NCBI RefSeq assembly: GCF_900163965.1
Contig: NZ_FULE01000034.1
Coordinates: forward strand, 1-64,000
Source: Vibrio ruber DSM 16370
GTDB taxonomy: Bacteria > Pseudomonadota > Gammaproteobacteria > Enterobacterales > Vibrionaceae
Reading direction: 5' to 3'
DNA: 64,000 nucleotides
A model generated the notes under the pieces. It did not search any database. It was not told the DNA's origin and was given only the letters and a program-made list of their open reading frames with translations. This document shows, one piece after another, positions 6,337-18,900 of this stretch. Both the position numbers and the translations under genes were made by a program. Position 1 is the stretch's first letter. Each line of letters begins with the position of its first letter.

Positions 6337-7026
6337 ATGTCCAGAAGGATTCTTGTGGTTGAGGACGAAGCACCCATTCGCGAAATGTTATGCTTTGTGC
6401 TTGAACAAAAAGGTTATCAGGCGGTTGAAGCTGAAGATTATGAGACCGCAATTAACAAACTCGCAGAACCTTTCCCTGATCTTGTTTTACTTGATTGGAT
6501 GCTTCCCGGAGGAAGTGGCATTAATTTTATCAAGCATATGAAACGAGAAGAGTTGACTCGAAATATTCCGGTCGTAATGTTGACGGCCCGCGGTGAAGAA
6601 GAAGATAAAGTCCGGGGGCTCGAAGTCGGTGCTGATGATTACATTACCAAACCCTTTTCTCCGAAAGAGTTAGTCGCCCGGCTCAAAGCGGTGATTCGTC
6701 GCGTCACTCCGACAGCATTGGAAGATGTGATTGATGTACAGGGGCTCAAGCTTGATCCGGTATCTCATCGGGTGACGGCCAATGACAAAGCGCTGGACAT
6801 GGGGCCGACAGAATTTAAGCTACTGCATTTCTTCATGACACATCAAGAGCGGGTCTATAGCCGTGAACAGTTATTGAATAATGTCTGGGGAACGAATGTT
6901 TATGTCGAAGACCGGACGGTGGATGTTCATATTCGTCGCTTGAGAAAAGCACTGGAAGATGCCGGACACGATAAATTAGTGCAGACGGTTCGCGGTGCCG
7001 GATATCGTTTTTCAACGAAAGCATAA
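6337..7026 (+). CDS. phoB: Phosphate regulon response regulator PhoB
   Basis: A 229-residue OmpR/PhoB-type regulator. The receiver domain (about 1-120) shows acidic residues at 9-11, the phosphorylated Asp-53 in [10 protein letters not shown] and the conserved Lys in [10 protein letters not shown]. The winged-helix domain (about 130-229) has [28 protein letters not shown] and the ending VRGAGYRF. Once phosphorylated by PhoR it activates Pho-box promoters under phosphate limitation. It has its own Pho box upstream, and phoR follows after 38 bp. Confidence 0.97.
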
Positions 7027-7064: not shown

Positions 7065-8366
7065 ATGGTCGAACGTCTAACTTGGAAAAGGCTGGCTTGG
7101 GGGCTGGCTTTTTTTTACTGTCCTTGGTTACTTGTCGGTTGGATCTTTGGCTACATGCCTTGGTTGCTACTGATCGCAACTGCCATTCAACTACTCTGGC
7201 ATCTGGGAAATCAAGTCCGTCTTTCTGCCTGGCTGTGGGATGAGCGTCGTTTAGGGCCGCCATCCGGCAAAGGGCAGTGGGAATATCTGTTTAACGGCAT
7301 CTATCACCTGCAACAGCATCAGCGTAAAAAACGCAAAGAGTTGACCAACCTGATCCGCCGTTTTCGCAATGGTGCCGAATCGTTGCCTGATGGTGTGGTC
7401 GTTTTTCGTGATGAAGGGAATATCGTCTGGTGTAACCGTCTGGCTCAGAACCTGCTGGGGTTTCGTTGGCCGGAGGATGAAGGTCAGCCAATATCCAATC
7501 TTTTGCGGGCTCCCGATTTTATTAAATATCTTGAAAAGAATGATTTTACCGAACCACTGGAAATTCACTCACCGCTGAATGTTGATCGCATGTTGGAGTT
7601 GCGAATCGTGCCTTACACTAAAGGCGAGCATTTATTGGTGGTGCGCGATGTGACTCAGTTGAAACAGCTGGAAGGTATGCGGAGAAACTTTTTTGCCAAT
7701 GTCTCCCATGAGCTACGGACGCCAATGACCGTTCTCCAAGGGTATCTGGAGATGACTGAAGACCCGGATATGCTGGGCGGCCCGATGTGGGAGAAGGCGC
7801 ATCAGGTCATGACTGAGCAGTTGAGCCGGATGAACAGTTTGGTCAATCAGTTACTGACGTTATCGAAGATCGAAGCGGCACCGATGCATGAGCTGGATGA
7901 GGTGGTTGATATTCCGGCGATGCTCAAGGTTCTCGAAAAAGAGGCGATGAGTCTTAGCGGCGACAATCAGCATCAGTTACATTTTGAAGTGGATCAAACC
8001 CTGAAAGTTTTGGGGGATGAAGATCAGCTCAGAAGCGCGGTCTCTAATCTGGTTTATAATGCGGTGAAATACACCCCGCCCAAGGCAGAGATTCGTGTGC
8101 GCTGGTATAGCAGTTATCAGGGCGCATGCCTGGAAGTTGAAGATTCAGGGGAAGGAATTGCTCCGCAGCACTTACATCGTCTGACGGAACGGTTTTACCG
8201 GGTTGATAAAGCACGTTCCCGTGATACCGGTGGCAGCGGGCTCGGGCTGGCAATCGTGAAACATGCGCTCTCTCACCATGACTCACATCTTGATATCCAT
8301 AGTGAAGTTGGTGTCGGAAGCCGGTTCTCTTTTGTATTACCCAAACGTCTGGTTGTTCAGTCATGA
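7065..8366 (+). CDS. phoR: Phosphate sensor histidine kinase PhoR
   Basis: A 433-residue membrane histidine kinase. Two hydrophobic segments at the N-terminus (about residues 8-48) anchor it without a large periplasmic domain. A cytoplasmic PAS region follows (about 95-200, with [17 protein letters not shown]). The dimerisation domain carries the phospho-acceptor His in [10 protein letters not shown] (near 214), and the ATPase domain has [15 protein letters not shown] and [13 protein letters not shown]. It phosphorylates or dephosphorylates PhoB according to signals from Pst and PhoU. A strong GAGGAG precedes the start. Its stop overlaps the pstS start (ATGA). Confidence 0.96.
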
Positions 8367-13075: not shown

Positions 13076-13342
13076 TCTCTGTAAGATAATAGTCGGTAAT
13101 ATATATGCAACTCGTGGTTTATTTCACACCAAGCCAACATAACTATCAGTAATAAAAAAGAAAGTTAGGTGTTTTGTGTTACATTTTTATTTCAAAGTTT
13201 TTTATTTCAAAGTATATAAGACATTTGGTGATTTACTTGTGTGAGGGTTGGAAATAGACAGGAAAATAACGATGAATCAATCATAAAATCGGGCTTGTAT
13301 GTCACTTGTTATTTCAGGTGGTTAGCGCTTGTTGTAATATAA

Positions 13343-13360
13343 ATGTCACGTCATTGACAT
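13343..13360 (+). promoter_or_regulatory. Candidate Pho box upstream of pstC
   Basis: ATGTCAC, GTCA, TTGACAT has the 7-4-7 layout of a Pho box with about 11 of 14 consensus matches, 120 bp before pstC. It is also nearly palindromic (ATGTCA, 6 bases, TGACAT), so another dimeric regulator could be the true ligand, and it could serve either direction. Confidence 0.45.
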
Positions 13361-13479: not shown

Positions 13480-15669
13480 ATGTCATACCCTCAGTTTTCT
13501 CTCAAAGCAGCGGATAAACAGCGTCTTGTTAAAGATCGACTGATTCGTTTTACCGTTAGTGCTGGTGGTGTCAGTGTGCTTGGGGCTTTGATCCTAATCT
13601 TCGTGTATCTGATTTGGGTGGCTTTTCCGCTGTTTTTCGGTGCTGAAATCAAGACATCTTCTATTCATCCAAGTGTTTCTGCTTCCGGCCAGAGCCCGCT
13701 CCAACTTACTGTTGATGAATATGGTCAACATGTTTTTATGCTGGATCATCTCGGGAAAATGACGTTCTGGTCGACACAAAAAACAGCACAGTCACCGCTT
13801 TGGCAGCAACAAATTGATTTCGTGCCCAAGCAGAGTGCTGTGGTCGGGCATTGGTTTGCGGCACTCGGTGCTGATAAACAACTGGTGATTGGCCGGCCTC
13901 AATTTACTTACCGGCTTCGTGGTGGCGAGAAGGTTTTCATCCCGAATTTTGAACAACTCAAACTGCCTTCATCACTGCGTGCCGATATTCCGGAGCATGT
14001 CCGTCGATTGACGTTTGCTGTATCAGCACAGGCCGTAACGATCGCATTTGCCGCTCAAAACGACACACTCACGGTTTTGTCATGGTCCCGGCATTCAGCG
14101 CAAGTGAATGCCTTTCATTTTCCTGAGCCGATTGCGGCTGACGCGTTATTATTGTCCCCCGATGGTCAGATGCTGTATGTCCGCGAAGGTGGGCATCTTG
14201 TCATTGCAACCCGTAATGGTCAGACATATCAGGTCAGAGAGGTGGTTGATCTGACCCGAGGTGATACCCACCGAACGATCGTCCAAATGGTTTTATTGCC
14301 CGGTGGTGACTCATTATTAGTGCGTGATCAACAAGGGGTTGTTACCCAATGGTTTGATGTCATTCGGGATCAAAAAAGACAGTTCACGCCGATTCGTGCA
14401 TTCAACACCGGTGAGCAGACGAGTTTTATTGTTACGGATGCTTATCATCAGGGGTTTTTCTCATTTCATCACACAGGACAGGTGCGTAATTATCAGGCGA
14501 CGAATCATAAGCTGGTTTTGGCGCAAAAGATGTTTGAGCAGTCTCCGGAGCGGGTGGCTTTGTCTGAAAATGAAAAATATCTGGTCGCATACCGTCAAGG
14601 GCAACTGAATCTGGCTCATGTTGATCTCGGATATCCGGAGATCTCATTCTCTGCGTTGTGGCAGAAATTATGGTACGAAAATTATCCGCAACCGGACTAT
14701 GTCTGGCAATCCACATCCGCGTCGGATAGTTTCGAGCCGAAGTTTAGTTTGGTGCCTATTGTTTTCGGCACCATTAAAGCTGCACTGTATGCAATGATTT
14801 TTGCTGTGCCGATGGCAATTTTAGCGGCGATTTATACCGCTTATTTTATGTCTGCCCGGATGCGACGTAAGGTGAAGCCGACCATTGAACTGATGGAAGC
14901 ATTACCAACCGTGATCATCGGCTTTCTGGCGGGGCTGTGGCTGGCTCCAATTTTAGAGCAGCATCTGGTCGCTGCGGTAGTCATGATCATTCTATTGCCG
15001 TTATCGACGATTGTATTCGGTCTGATATGGCATTTTTCACCGGATCGCTGGCGCAGAACGGTACAGCGTGGCTGGCACGCTGCGATTTTAGTACCGGTAT
15101 TGGCCGGTGTGATGGCGCTGATGCTGCCGGTCGGTTTTAACCTTGAGACCTGGCTGTTTGATGGGGATATCCGGGTCTTTCTGGCGCAATACGGCATCGA
15201 CTTTAATCAACGCAATGCGTTAGTGGTTGGGATTGCGATGGGGTTTGCGGTGATTCCGACGATTTTTACCATCGCTGAAGATGCGATTTTCTCTGTGCCG
15301 AAGCACCTTTCCGATGGTTCGCTGGCATTGGGGGCAACCCCTTGGCAAACCCTGACGCATGTTGTGTTACTGACTGCAAGCCCGGGCATTTTTTCTGCGA
15401 TTATGATGGGGCTGGGACGCGCGGTTGGTGAAACCATGATCGTGCTGATGGCTACCGGCAACACGCCGATTATGGACTGGAATATTTTTGAAGGAATGCG
15501 CACGCTTGCCGCGACCATTGCAGTGGAATTACCGGAAGCAGAAGTCGGTAGTAGTCAGTATCGGTTGTTGTTTTTAGGGGCACTGCTGTTGTTTATCTTT
15601 ACGTTTTTAGTCAATGCGTTGGCGGAGTGGATTCGATTGCGCCTGCGAGAAAAGTATCGGGCATTGTGA
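13480..15669 (+). CDS. pstC: Phosphate ABC transporter permease PstC, long form with periplasmic domain
   Basis: A 729-residue permease subunit of the high-affinity phosphate importer, more than twice the length of E. coli PstC (319). An N-terminal membrane segment (about residues 28-50) is followed by roughly 360 residues predicted outside the membrane. These contain repeated strand-like units such as LSPDGQMLYVREGG, LPGGDSLLVRD and LSENEKYLVAYRQG, resembling a beta-propeller. The permease domain proper (from about 420) has several membrane helices and the ABC-contact loop containing [15 protein letters not shown]. It is the first gene of pstCAB-phoU; no pstS precedes it. Confidence 0.9.
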   Translation: MSYPQFSLKAADKQRLVKDRLIRFTVSAGGVSVLGALILIFVYLIWVAFPLFFGAEIKTSSIHPSVSASGQSPLQLTVDEYGQHVFMLDHLGKMTFWSTQKTAQSPLWQQQIDFVPKQSAVVGHWFAALGADKQLVIGRPQFTYRLRGGEKVFIPNFEQLKLPSSLRADIPEHVRRLTFAVSAQAVTIAFAAQNDTLTVLSWSRHSAQVNAFHFPEPIAADALLLSPDGQMLYVREGGHLVIATRNGQTYQVREVVDLTRGDTHRTIVQMVLLPGGDSLLVRDQQGVVTQWFDVIRDQKRQFTPIRAFNTGEQTSFIVTDAYHQGFFSFHHTGQVRNYQATNHKLVLAQKMFEQSPERVALSENEKYLVAYRQGQLNLAHVDLGYPEISFSALWQKLWYENYPQPDYVWQSTSASDSFEPKFSLVPIVFGTIKAALYAMIFAVPMAILAAIYTAYFMSARMRRKVKPTIELMEALPTVIIGFLAGLWLAPILEQHLVAAVVMIILLPLSTIVFGLIWHFSPDRWRRTVQRGWHAAILVPVLAGVMALMLPVGFNLETWLFDGDIRVFLAQYGIDFNQRNALVVGIAMGFAVIPTIFTIAEDAIFSVPKHLSDGSLALGATPWQTLTHVVLLTASPGIFSAIMMGLGRAVGETMIVLMATGNTPIMDWNIFEGMRTLAATIAVELPEAEVGSSQYRLLFLGALLLFIFTFLVNALAEWIRLRLREKYRAL

Positions 15670-15686: not shown

Positions 15687-17327
15687 ATGGTGAATTGGAT
15701 AAAGTCCGGCTCTCCGTGGATATGGCTGACAGGCGGGGCGGTGAGTTTCAGTTTACTCGCTGTATTAGGGCTATTGCTGCTGATTGGCTGGAAAGGGTTA
15801 ACTTATTTCTGGCCGACCCCTTTATTATCATGGCAGACATCGTCAGGTGAGCGTCTGATTGGTCAACTTTATGATCAAGATGAAGTGCTGGCCTCCCATT
15901 TGTCCTCGCTCAAGAACGGTAAGACTGTCAAAGAAGGGGACTCGATTACTCGTTTGCATATTAAGATCGCGAACCGCGATATTTATCCGTCAGATTTTGT
16001 ATCAGTTCTCAAGAGTCAGCTCTCTGAACCCTCTGTGCCACGAGGCTGGGCTGTGATTGATCGAACCCGGGACGGGCAGTTTTTTGGCAAGCCAGTTGGT
16101 TATCAGCTCGCGGATGGTGTGGTGGCGGATAATACTGATATAGCCCTGCAAGCCGGATTGGTTGAATCTGAACAGGTTCACCAACAGATTCAAACCCTGA
16201 TGCGTGACAAAGTGCAGGTGTGGAATCAGCAGCTGGAAAAACTGCGTTTAGAGAAACGCAAGCGTGAACTGAACCATCAGCTCGATGCTGCTTATCTGAC
16301 ACAATATGATCAGCAAAAATCAGCACTCGAGCAGAAGTTAACTGCGGTTTCTCAGACTTTGGATGCGTTGCGTGAGCAGCTCAGACAACAAGCTTTGCTG
16401 GTGGTCGATATGCGGGGAGATACCATTCGCATACCGGTGAGTCAGATCTTGCATATCTGGTATCCCAACGATATGTCCTTGCCGGAAAAAATCGCTCACT
16501 GGGGTAAACAGGTGTGGCATTTCGTCGCTGATGATCCCAGAGAATCGAATTCGGAAGGTGGAGTATTCCCTGCGATTTTTGGCACTATTTTACTGGTGAT
16601 TATCATGTCTGTTATCGTGATGCCGCTTGGTGTGGTGGCTGCGATCTATTTACATGAGTATGCCGGTGAAAATACATTAACCCATCTGATCCGTGTCGCG
16701 GTGATGAATTTGGCTGGTGTACCTTCCATTGTTTATGGTGTGTTCGGACTCGGTTTTTTTGTCTATACCATTGGTGGCACCATTGATTCGTTGTTTTATG
16801 CCGAGCGTTTGCCTGCGCCGACGTTTGGTACCCCCGGACTACTGTGGTCAGCCTTGACGTTAGCTGTGCTCACATTACCGGTTGTGATTGTCGCGACAGA
16901 AGAAGGGTTAAGCCGAATTCCACTCTCTGTTCGTCATGGGTCGTTGGCGCTGGGAGCCACCCAATTTGAAACCATCTGGCGGGTGGTTTTGCCGATGGCA
17001 ACGCCGGCAATGATCACCGGGTTGATTCTGGCTGTTGCCAGAGCTGCCGGGGAAGTGGCTCCGTTAATGTTGGTCGGGGTGGTGAAAATGGCATCTCGTC
17101 TTCCGGTCGATAATGAGTTTCCATTTATCCACTTGGAACGAAAATTTATGCATCTGGGATTCCACATTTATGATGTCGGCTTTCAGACCAGTAATATCGA
17201 GGCTGCACGGCCGCTGGTATTCGCGACCTCATTCTTACTGGTTGCCGTGATTGTTGCACTGAATCTGACAGCGATTGGTATCCGGAATAATCTGCGGGAG
17301 AAATACAGAACAATGGGACAGGATTAA
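15687..17327 (+). CDS. pstA: Phosphate ABC transporter permease PstA, long form with coiled coil
   Basis: A 546-residue permease partner of PstC, against 296 in E. coli. One N-terminal membrane helix (about 10-35) is followed by some 240 predicted periplasmic residues, including a Glu/Gln/Leu-rich coiled coil near 172-243 ([13 protein letters not shown] to [10 protein letters not shown]). The permease domain begins near 290 ([16 protein letters not shown]), and the ABC-contact loop reads [16 protein letters not shown]. It follows pstC by 17 bp, and pstB starts 2 bp after its stop, so the subunits are co-expressed. Confidence 0.9.
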
Positions 17328-17329
17328 TC

Positions 17330-18148
17330 ATGTTACCTTTGAATCATACGCTGGGGTTCCAGCCAACCATTGATGTCAATCATCTCAGCGATCAACAGAC
17401 TGCGATTGAGATTGATGATCTCAGCCTGTTTTATCAGGGGACTCTTGCACTCAGTCATATTTCAATGCGGATTCCCAAAGGGCAAGTGACGGCTTTTATT
17501 GGCCCTTCCGGATGTGGTAAGTCAACGTTATTGCGTTGTATGAACCGGATGAATGATTTGGTTGAAGGGTGTCGGGTTGAAGGAAAAGTTACATTGCATG
17601 GTCAGGATATTTATGCGCCATCGGTCGATGTTGCCACCCTGCGCCGACGCGTCGGTATGGTGTTTCAGCGTCCGAACCCGTTTCCGAAATCAATTTATGA
17701 GAATGTGATTTATGGGTTGCGCTTGCAAGGTGTGCGCAATGCCCGGACACTGGATGATGCGGTTGAGCGCTCATTACGGGCAGCAGCACTGTGGGAAGAA
17801 GTGAAGCATCGTTTACATGAAAATGCATTTGGTTTGTCGGGCGGTCAGCAACAGCGTCTGGTGATTGCCCGGGCGATTGCGATCGAACCGGAAATTCTGT
17901 TATTGGATGAACCGACATCGGCGCTTGACCCGATTTCAACGCTGACGATCGAAGAGCTGATCAATGATCTTAAGACCAAATATACGGTGGTAATCGTCAC
18001 GCACAACATGCAACAGGCCGCACGCGTCAGTGATCACACGGCCTTCATTCACATGGGTAAGCTGGTTGAATATGCAGATACGGATACCATTTTTACATCG
18101 CCAGTGAAAAAACAGACTGAAGACTATATTACCGGGCGTTACGGATAA
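17330..18148 (+). CDS. pstB: Phosphate ABC transporter ATPase PstB
   Basis: A 272-residue ABC ATPase that powers phosphate import. Walker A is GPSGCGKST (near 61-69), the Q-loop lies in [14 protein letters not shown], the signature is LSGGQQQRL, Walker B is [13 protein letters not shown] and the H-loop lies in [11 protein letters not shown]. It begins 2 bp after pstA and is followed by phoU 38 bp downstream. The roughly 20-residue N-terminal extension before the ATPase core is ordinary for PstB. Confidence 0.96.
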
Positions 18149-18186
18149 CCGTTTGTCATTAGACGATACAATTGAAGAGAGGCATT

Positions 18187-18900
18187 ATGCAGTTTGGTCG
18201 CCACATATCCGGGCAGTTCAACGCTGAGCTTGAAGCGATCCGGACACATGTCCTGACAATGGGCGGATTAGTCGAGCAGCAATTATCTTATGCCATGCAA
18301 GCATTGCATAAGCAAGATCTGGAACTGGCTCGTCAGGTGATCCGCGATGATCACAAGGTTAATGCAATGGAGGTTGCGATTGATGATGCCTGTACCCGGA
18401 TTATTGCGAAGAGGCAGCCAACCGCAAAAGATTTGCGCCTGATTATTGCCATTATCAAGACCATTACGGATTTGGAGCGGATTGGTGACGTCGCGACCAG
18501 AATGGCCCACGTTGCGATTGAGAGTCCGGCTTCAAAAGAGCGCCGGTTTCAGGTGTCTCTGGAACCTTTATGTCGCCAAGCTATCGCTATGCTACACCAA
18601 GTGTTGGATGCATTTGCCCGGATGGATGTTGAGGCTGCGGCCCAGGTTCACAAACTCGATGATCGGCTCGATTCAGAATACGAAGCGGTCATTCGCCAGT
18701 TGATGACCTATATGATGGAAGATACCAAAAATATTCCGCATATTCTGCAAGTGATGTGGTCTGCCCGTGCGATTGAACGCGTCGGGGATCGTTGCCAGAA
18801 TATTTGTGAATACATTATCTACTTTGTGAAAGGCAAAGATGTCCGCCATCTGGGCGATCAGTCTCTCGATGATGTGTTAAAAACCGATCCTGACACATAA
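18187..18900 (+). CDS. phoU: Phosphate signalling regulator PhoU
   Basis: A 237-residue all-helical PhoU made of two repeated three-helix units, each with a conserved acidic metal-binding segment: [19 protein letters not shown] (near 89-107) and [16 protein letters not shown] (near 193-208). It links the Pst transporter to PhoR and keeps the Pho regulon off when phosphate is plentiful. The ATG at 18187, preceded by GAAGAGAGG, is preferred to the TTG at 18172. It ends the pst operon at a strong terminator. Confidence 0.94.

Follow-up and report, generated by a model that had tools for sequence, protein, structure and literature searches.

We analysed a 64-kb stretch of Vibrio ruber DSM 16370 DNA (assembly GCF_900163965.1, contig NZ_FULE01000034.1, positions 1–64,000), hereafter the window, which contains genes of the Pst system, known from textbooks as the importer that takes up phosphate with high affinity and feeds sensory information to the Pho regulon. 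On the forward strand, pstC, pstA, pstB and phoU follow one another in this order. The pstC gene is a single open frame (13480..15669, +; ATG at 13480, stop at 15669) encoding a long form of 729 aa. It is followed by a long pstA of 546 aa (15687..17327, +), which matches TIGR00974 above cut-off, by pstB (17330..18148, +), which has an ABC_tran match and is named from its operon position, and by phoU (18172..18900, +), for which the start listed is a TTG and the real start may be further in. Upstream on the same strand lie phoB (6337..7026, +), phoR (7065..8366, +) and a gene for a PstS family protein (TIGR02136; 8363..9337, +), which is the probable binding protein of the long Pst system. The ppx and ppk genes sit between these upstream genes and the pst genes, on the opposite strand. 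The search for a Pho box upstream of pstC gave a single site with three mismatches (13332–13348), and the window as a whole contained 20 sites vs 18.1 expected.

A second pst operon in the V. ruber genome is short: it encodes a PstC of 332 aa, a PstA of 287 aa and its own PstS, and no phoU was found at this operon among frames of at least 150 aa across 9 kb.

Domain layout of the long PstC

A preliminary description of this locus had singled out PstC for its 729 residues, far above the usual length of about 320, and for some 360 extra residues between the first membrane helix (TM1) and the permease core. Both points hold. The frame is confirmed, E. coli PstC has 319 aa and is therefore too short for the domain described below, and the insert spans about residues 54–423 (about 370 residues), close to the 50–415 noted earlier. 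TM1 occupies residues of about 21–52 (13540..13635, +) according to the AlphaFold2 model and hydropathy. The N-terminus that precedes it is positive, with six K/R vs two D/E in residues 1–24. Hydropathy analysis found a segment at 21–58, none entirely within 54–420, and the core after that.

The permease core, residues 424–729 (14749..15666, +), is delimited by Pfam, NCBIfam and the model. In a Pfam search at E≤1, BPD_transp_1 matched residues 511–723 with 37 bits vs a cut-off of 26.4; matches to Tudor (301–331) and Caveolin (413–472) were below cut-off and are taken as chance. The PstC family model TIGR02138 scored 191.3 bits on the core (E 1.8e-56), which falls 5 bits short of its cut-off of 196.45, and 11 long-form rows among the matches listed scored 205–232 bits when the pieces per frame were summed. 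E. coli PstC, which is of the TIGR02138 type, shares this permease core and matches residues 580–724 of the window core. By its core and gene order, the window PstC is a predicted member of the phosphate ABC permease family, and phosphate transport is its predicted activity.

The PstC insert is predicted to form a seven-bladed propeller

An AlphaFold2 model of the window PstC, built with 80 sequences, has a mean pLDDT of 83.4 and a pTM of 0.75. Ten-residue blocks between residues 51 and 380 have pLDDT values of 85–97, with the exception of 61–70 (69). On this model, DSSP assigned 28 strands of at least three residues from 56 to 382, which fit seven blades of four strands each, strand 56–60 being the fourth strand of blade 7. 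This blade assignment follows from the strand order, and closure of the ring is deduced from fold matches rather than from the coordinates. The repeated strand-turn motifs that had led the preliminary description to suggest a beta-propeller fall in blades 4 and 7.

Fold comparison points to the same architecture. Foldseek with the propeller model returned 1730 PDB chains at E≤0.001, and the 50 PDB entries listed are, by their titles, WD40 proteins or WD40-containing complexes. VIA-align gave Z scores of 18.9–21.4 for the 50 entries listed, with rmsd of 3.6–5.2, mostly over model residues 54–392. These WD40 propellers (e.g. Utp21 and Sec12) share the fold over 283–309 aligned residues at 6–12% identity; they are eukaryotic by titles and none is an ABC permease. 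Sequence profiles of orthologues agree: the WDR55 Pfam model matches at least 21 of 28 PstC orthologues scanned singly at E≤0.1, other WD40 models match fewer (best E over all propeller models 5.7e-9), and a PDB search with a profile of the 28 orthologues retrieves WD40 chains, the strongest at 3.5e-5. In the same scan, PQQ_2/BamB models matched two of the 28 orthologues (best E 0.0013), and the window copy had no WD40 Pfam match. Taken together, structure prediction, fold search and orthologue profiles give good support to the prediction that PstC residues 54–385 (13639..14634, +; about 330 residues), modelled with high confidence, form a seven-bladed WD40-type propeller. It would lie on the periplasmic side, judging by TM1, hydropathy and the general topology of PstC.

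For the sequence comparisons, set A1 was composed of the 30 best-scoring of the 85 class matches, minus L007 (identical to the window), L010 (a 596-aa frame) and L024, and set A2 is without L052, which contains X. Set A3 includes 67 of the 81 PstA sequences and set A4 includes 43. The L010 frame (genome G056) aligns over 593 residues with the 766-aa frame of L011 (genome G193) at 98% identity, and it is either broken late in the core or affected by a sequencing error.

PstA carries an arm that accompanies the propeller

The preliminary description had made no mention of an extra domain in PstA, which is present wherever the propeller is. This periplasmic arm, residues 40–280 (15804..16526, +), is defined by model and profile as a beta domain into which a helical hairpin (residues 150–234; 16134..16388, +) is inserted, and the arm itself sits at the place equivalent to that of the propeller in PstC. 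In the AlphaFold model the arm consists of strands and the hairpin (150–195/201–234), with block pLDDT values of 74–92 except for 71–80 (57); the PstA core is poorly modelled, and the mean pLDDT over the whole of PstA is 67.9. Searches with the arm gave no clear fold match: Pfam returned no family above cut-off for its about 240 residues, Foldseek with the whole-PstA model found permease cores of ABC transporters (best E 9.4e-4) and, weakly, Sm-like structures (E 0.26–0.48), VIA-align gave Z of at most 9.2, located on the hairpin, and a sequence profile against the PDB had a best E of 0.026. The hairpin resembles that of MacA with Z of 7.7–8.1, values that ordinary helical hairpins can attain by chance.

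To describe how the two domains are distributed, profiles were run against 274 Gammaproteobacteria genomes. The propeller profile matches 85 of the 274 at E≤0.001 and the arm profile matches 88, the two together in 84. In 83 of these 84 genomes the arm match lies 1068–1736 bases downstream of the propeller match on the same strand, and in the other one (G181) contig ends split the pair. Five genomes were discordant. One (G247) encodes, next to pstA, an 882-aa PstC of the propeller type and was counted as the 85th holder by reading the locus; another (G186) was set aside as a contig end falls inside its pstA. The propeller match in G063 and the arm matches in G014 and G094 are false, being in frames without permease motifs. 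The corrected count thus remains at 85 of 274 (G063 removed, G247 added). The arm is found only with propeller PstC, in all 85 holders, and none of the 274 genomes demonstrably has one domain without the other.

Gene order tells the same at closer range. In all 80 named loci, which are the best 80 of 584 and hence those nearest to the window rather than a random sample, a long PstC (723–803 aa) is followed by a long PstA (515–614 aa) and PstB on the same strand, and PhoU follows in 79 of them. Among the Vibrio loci, a ppx match was not found beside pst in L048, L050, L051, L062 and L064, nor a ppk match in L050, L051, L062 and L064; the remaining Vibrio loci have both ppx and ppk beside pst. 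In one other genome of the genus (G292, C24:62995-65189), pstC reads as two overlapping frames of 570 and 199 aa; either the gene is split there or the sequence contains an error.

Distribution and phylogeny of the long Pst system

Long PstC had been expected in relatives of Vibrio, where it is indeed found, including all 24 other genomes of the genus; that expectation understated its spread to 85 of 274 Gammaproteobacteria genomes. As a yardstick, a TIGR02138 match of any kind at E≤1e-20 occurs in 197 of the same 274. In a sample of 398 genomes from the phylum, whose share from outside the class is not given, 61 match and 60 of these are Gammaproteobacteria. The sole match outside the class (G564; E 8e-5, profile positions 229–347, in a 1259-aa frame) is taken as an unrelated propeller. 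Four of the 60 genomes in the class (G323, G560, G580 and G666) match the last 40–60 profile positions only, corresponding to the linker, the propeller itself not being recognised.

Among the 591 pattern matches listed from genome contigs, 584 encode a relative. Named holders among the best 80 of these 584 include members of Vibrio, Photobacterium, Aeromonas, Pseudoalteromonas and Psychromonas, and further named holders are Serratia marcescens MSU97 and Pseudomonas chengduensis. In S. marcescens MSU97 (L107), the long pstC-pstA-pstB genes lie beside ppk/ppx, with no phoU match in the stretch examined. Viral contigs yielded one pattern match, which is not a relative, and plasmids yielded two records, from Pseudomonas aeruginosa and Aeromonas caviae. 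A pst operon of P. aeruginosa was reportedly described by Nikata in 1996.

A third kind of Pst system is present in some Vibrio and a relative, with a PstC of 459–466 aa and a PstA of 431–467 aa. All five mid-size loci (L133–L137), which were picked by length, fit this kind, and the two that were scanned with Pfam have DUF3708 with DUF3333. Above the Pfam cut-offs, DUF3708 is found in 68 and DUF3333 in 71 of the 274 genomes: all 68 with DUF3708 have DUF3333, and three more have DUF3333 alone (G024 and G013, below the cut-offs, were left out of these counts). This association was already noted in 2013 (PMC3597751). Like the propeller and the arm, DUF3708 and DUF3333 (PF12501/PF11812) are co-occurring extras N-terminal to the conserved core; they differ in size (about 460 and 430–467 aa for the whole proteins) and belong to a separate PstC clade. 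Neither domain matched the window PstC or PstA (Pfam, E≤1), and DUF3708 was not found in the V. ruber genome. Mid-size paired inserts are a kind already known, and the propeller/arm pair is a separate form of paired PstC/PstA inserts. Long and mid kinds occur together in 3 of 274 genomes vs 22.0 expected (Fisher p 6e-10, uncorrected for kinship).

In a tree of PstC cores built by a quick method from 61 rows (28 short, 7 mid and 26 long), each form falls on one side of a branch, with SH-aLRT values of 99 for the long, 99 for the mid and 78 for the short form. The short rows were the best-scoring ones rather than random, and the program warns of long branches meeting. Because each form lies on one branch side, a single gain of the propeller would be the simplest reading.

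Conservation, charge and covariation

Between the propeller and the core lies a linker, residues 386–423 (14635..14748, +), recognised by conservation and the model. In the 80 loci, identity to the window PstC is 16–36% over residues 54–390, 56–83% over 391–426 and 57–77% over 427–729. Weighted over 108 sequences, a set from which L010 was omitted for the conservation and charge calculations, the linker averages 3.47 bits of information and the core 3.35, compared with 2.00–2.30 for blades 5–7 and 1.50–1.77 for blades 1–4. As judged from sequence comparison, then, the propeller is fast-evolving and the linker is conserved as much as the permease core. Linker residues 396–405 and 407–420 have pLDDT below 50 in the monomer model. 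A segment that is conserved yet unordered in the monomer is what would be expected if it orders on a partner. In an alignment with one short and four mid sequences, most of the long-form linker had no counterpart in the short PstC of V. ruber. Net charge of the propeller has a median of −14 and spans −38 to +21; 100 of the 108 sequences have a negative value, and the window copy is at +1. Residues R323 and K324 are conserved in most orthologues, and the window copy has H/Q there.

We also compared evolutionary distances between proteins of the same loci, the propeller distances being corrected for PstC core and PstB. With 42 loci, partial correlations with the propeller are 0.47 for PstS, 0.28 for the PstA arm, 0.23 for the PstA core and −0.06 for PhoU. 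With 31 loci, PPK being included, they are 0.32 for PstS, 0.14 for the arm, 0.17 for the PstA core, 0.17 for PhoU and 0.13 for PPK; with 79 loci, 0.38 for the arm, 0.39 for the PstA core and 0.02 for PhoU. PhoR reaches 0.18 in its larger set (n=28). The 15 loci with every gene give another order: PhoU 0.37, PhoR 0.29, PstS 0.28, PPX 0.23, PPK 0.23, PstA core 0.15 and arm −0.16. The arm itself, corrected for PstA core and PstB, correlates with PstS at 0.40 (n=37) and with PhoU at −0.08 (n=66). The covariation of propeller and PstS is therefore a hint: it is modest, locus-dependent and unstable in the smallest set.

Discussion

Prediction and comparative genomics show what fold the insert has, where it is inserted, that it pairs with the PstA arm, that long cores cluster on the tree and that a fast-evolving propeller contrasts with a conserved linker. 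Its periplasmic location, its contacts with PstS and with the PstA arm, and the coupling to the gate are our inference.

The preliminary description had considered the role of the extra domain as not established, and this still stands: no description of a PstC propeller was found in the accessible parts of the open-licence literature, including PMC2225411, PMC3597751, PMC5775613 and PMC4926252, and the available excerpts of PMC11596576 (on PQQ-binding propellers, with 323-aa PstC rows), PMC10745930 (on beta-propeller phytase) and PMC4423584 (on E. coli PhoR) do not mention it.

A precedent for an importer permease with an inserted periplasmic domain is MalF of the maltose importer, whose P2 domain touches the binding protein. 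MalF P2 differs from the PstC propeller in having another fold and lying in another loop, and we know of no partner arm in MalG.

Among the roles proposed earlier, which were binding of PstS, of polyphosphate or of cell-envelope partners and direct sensing of phosphate, docking of PstS is the most plausible, although unproven. More specifically, the PstC propeller and the PstA arm may pair up into a platform that sits on the channel formed by PstC and PstA, at its outer face. Such a platform would capture and orient PstS, raising the odds of productive docking, and the conserved linker 386–423 would couple the docked state to the gate. In type I importers, the places beside PstC TM1 and its PstA equivalent flank the landing site of PstS. 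A docking platform best accounts for the co-occurrence of the two domains, the conserved linker and a propeller rate that tracks PstS in the sets with more loci, and paired function gains a further point from the known mid-size DUF3708/DUF3333 inserts, which are also paired. Several points count against it: the covariation with PstS is weak and varies with the loci used, arm and PstA core covary with the propeller to the same degree (n=79), the fold of the arm has no clear match, and one might expect a surface for docking to show more conservation than blades 1–4 do. In addition, E. coli-type PstSCAB (PDB entries 9k3s, 9k3x and 9k3y) is without both inserts, so that a platform would be unnecessary for transport as such. 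We favour the PstS-capturing platform tentatively, at a little under even chances.

The constant pairing of propeller and arm, and the equal covariation of arm and PstA core with the propeller, would also be explained if the two domains served assembly or stability. They would then clamp PstC to PstA and set the choice of partner among two or three Pst systems, with PstS docking as in E. coli. V. ruber has a short PstC/PstA pair besides the long one and some Vibrio have mid-size pairs; with several pairs per cell, specificity between PstC and PstA would matter. On the other hand, PstS has the highest partial correlation in the sets of 42 and 31 loci, though not in that of 15, and a propeller of 330 residues is costly for that purpose; we regard such a clamp as somewhat unlikely. 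An envelope scaffold, in which propeller and hairpin hold a further periplasmic or outer-membrane partner (a porin, a phosphatase or peptidoglycan) near the importer and so channel phosphate to PstS, appears quite unlikely. BamB and TolB are periplasmic propellers that act as protein scaffolds, PQQ_2/BamB models match the two orthologues mentioned above, and the arm hairpin is MacA-like, but at a Z within the chance range for helical hairpins; moreover, no partner gene was found when the flanks were compared with eight window proteins.

Sensing was the remaining proposal of the preliminary description, and it fares poorly. If the propeller bound phosphate, polyphosphate or some other ligand and passed a signal on to the Pho system, this would agree with the location of the pst operon next to phoBR and ppk/ppx in the window, with the conservation of R323/K324 in most orthologues and with the PhoU covariation in the 15-locus set. 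The window copy, however, has H/Q at these two positions, PhoU covariation is about zero in the two largest sets (n=79 and 42), and a mostly negative propeller (window +1, range up to +21) with poorly conserved blades 1–4 disfavours phosphate or polyphosphate as ligand; we regard direct sensing as improbable. The least probable of the alternatives, to which we assign very little weight, is that contact with the propeller sets the state of PhoR across the membrane. The phoR gene lies upstream of pstC, PhoR covaries with the propeller in the 15 loci, and transporter conformation in E. coli has been proposed to signal to PhoR and PhoU (PMC5775613). Location speaks against such a contact, since PhoR is described as lacking a significant periplasmic domain in PMC5775613 and PMC4423584, and the correlation is lower in the larger set.

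In a broader proposal, which we consider unlikely, the Pst importers of Gammaproteobacteria would fall into separate kinds that mostly replace one another and are set apart by matched periplasmic inserts in PstC and PstA. The propeller and hairpin-arm would then constitute an undescribed periplasmic module that changes the route of phosphate to the permease, for example by permanent holding of PstS or by bridging to the outer membrane or cell wall.

About a third of the sampled Gammaproteobacteria (85 of 274) have phosphate permeases with large paired periplasmic domains, and Pfam has no family of their own for the PstC propeller and the PstA arm. If propeller and arm dock PstS, the mechanism of the E. 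coli importer would not transfer unchanged to these systems.
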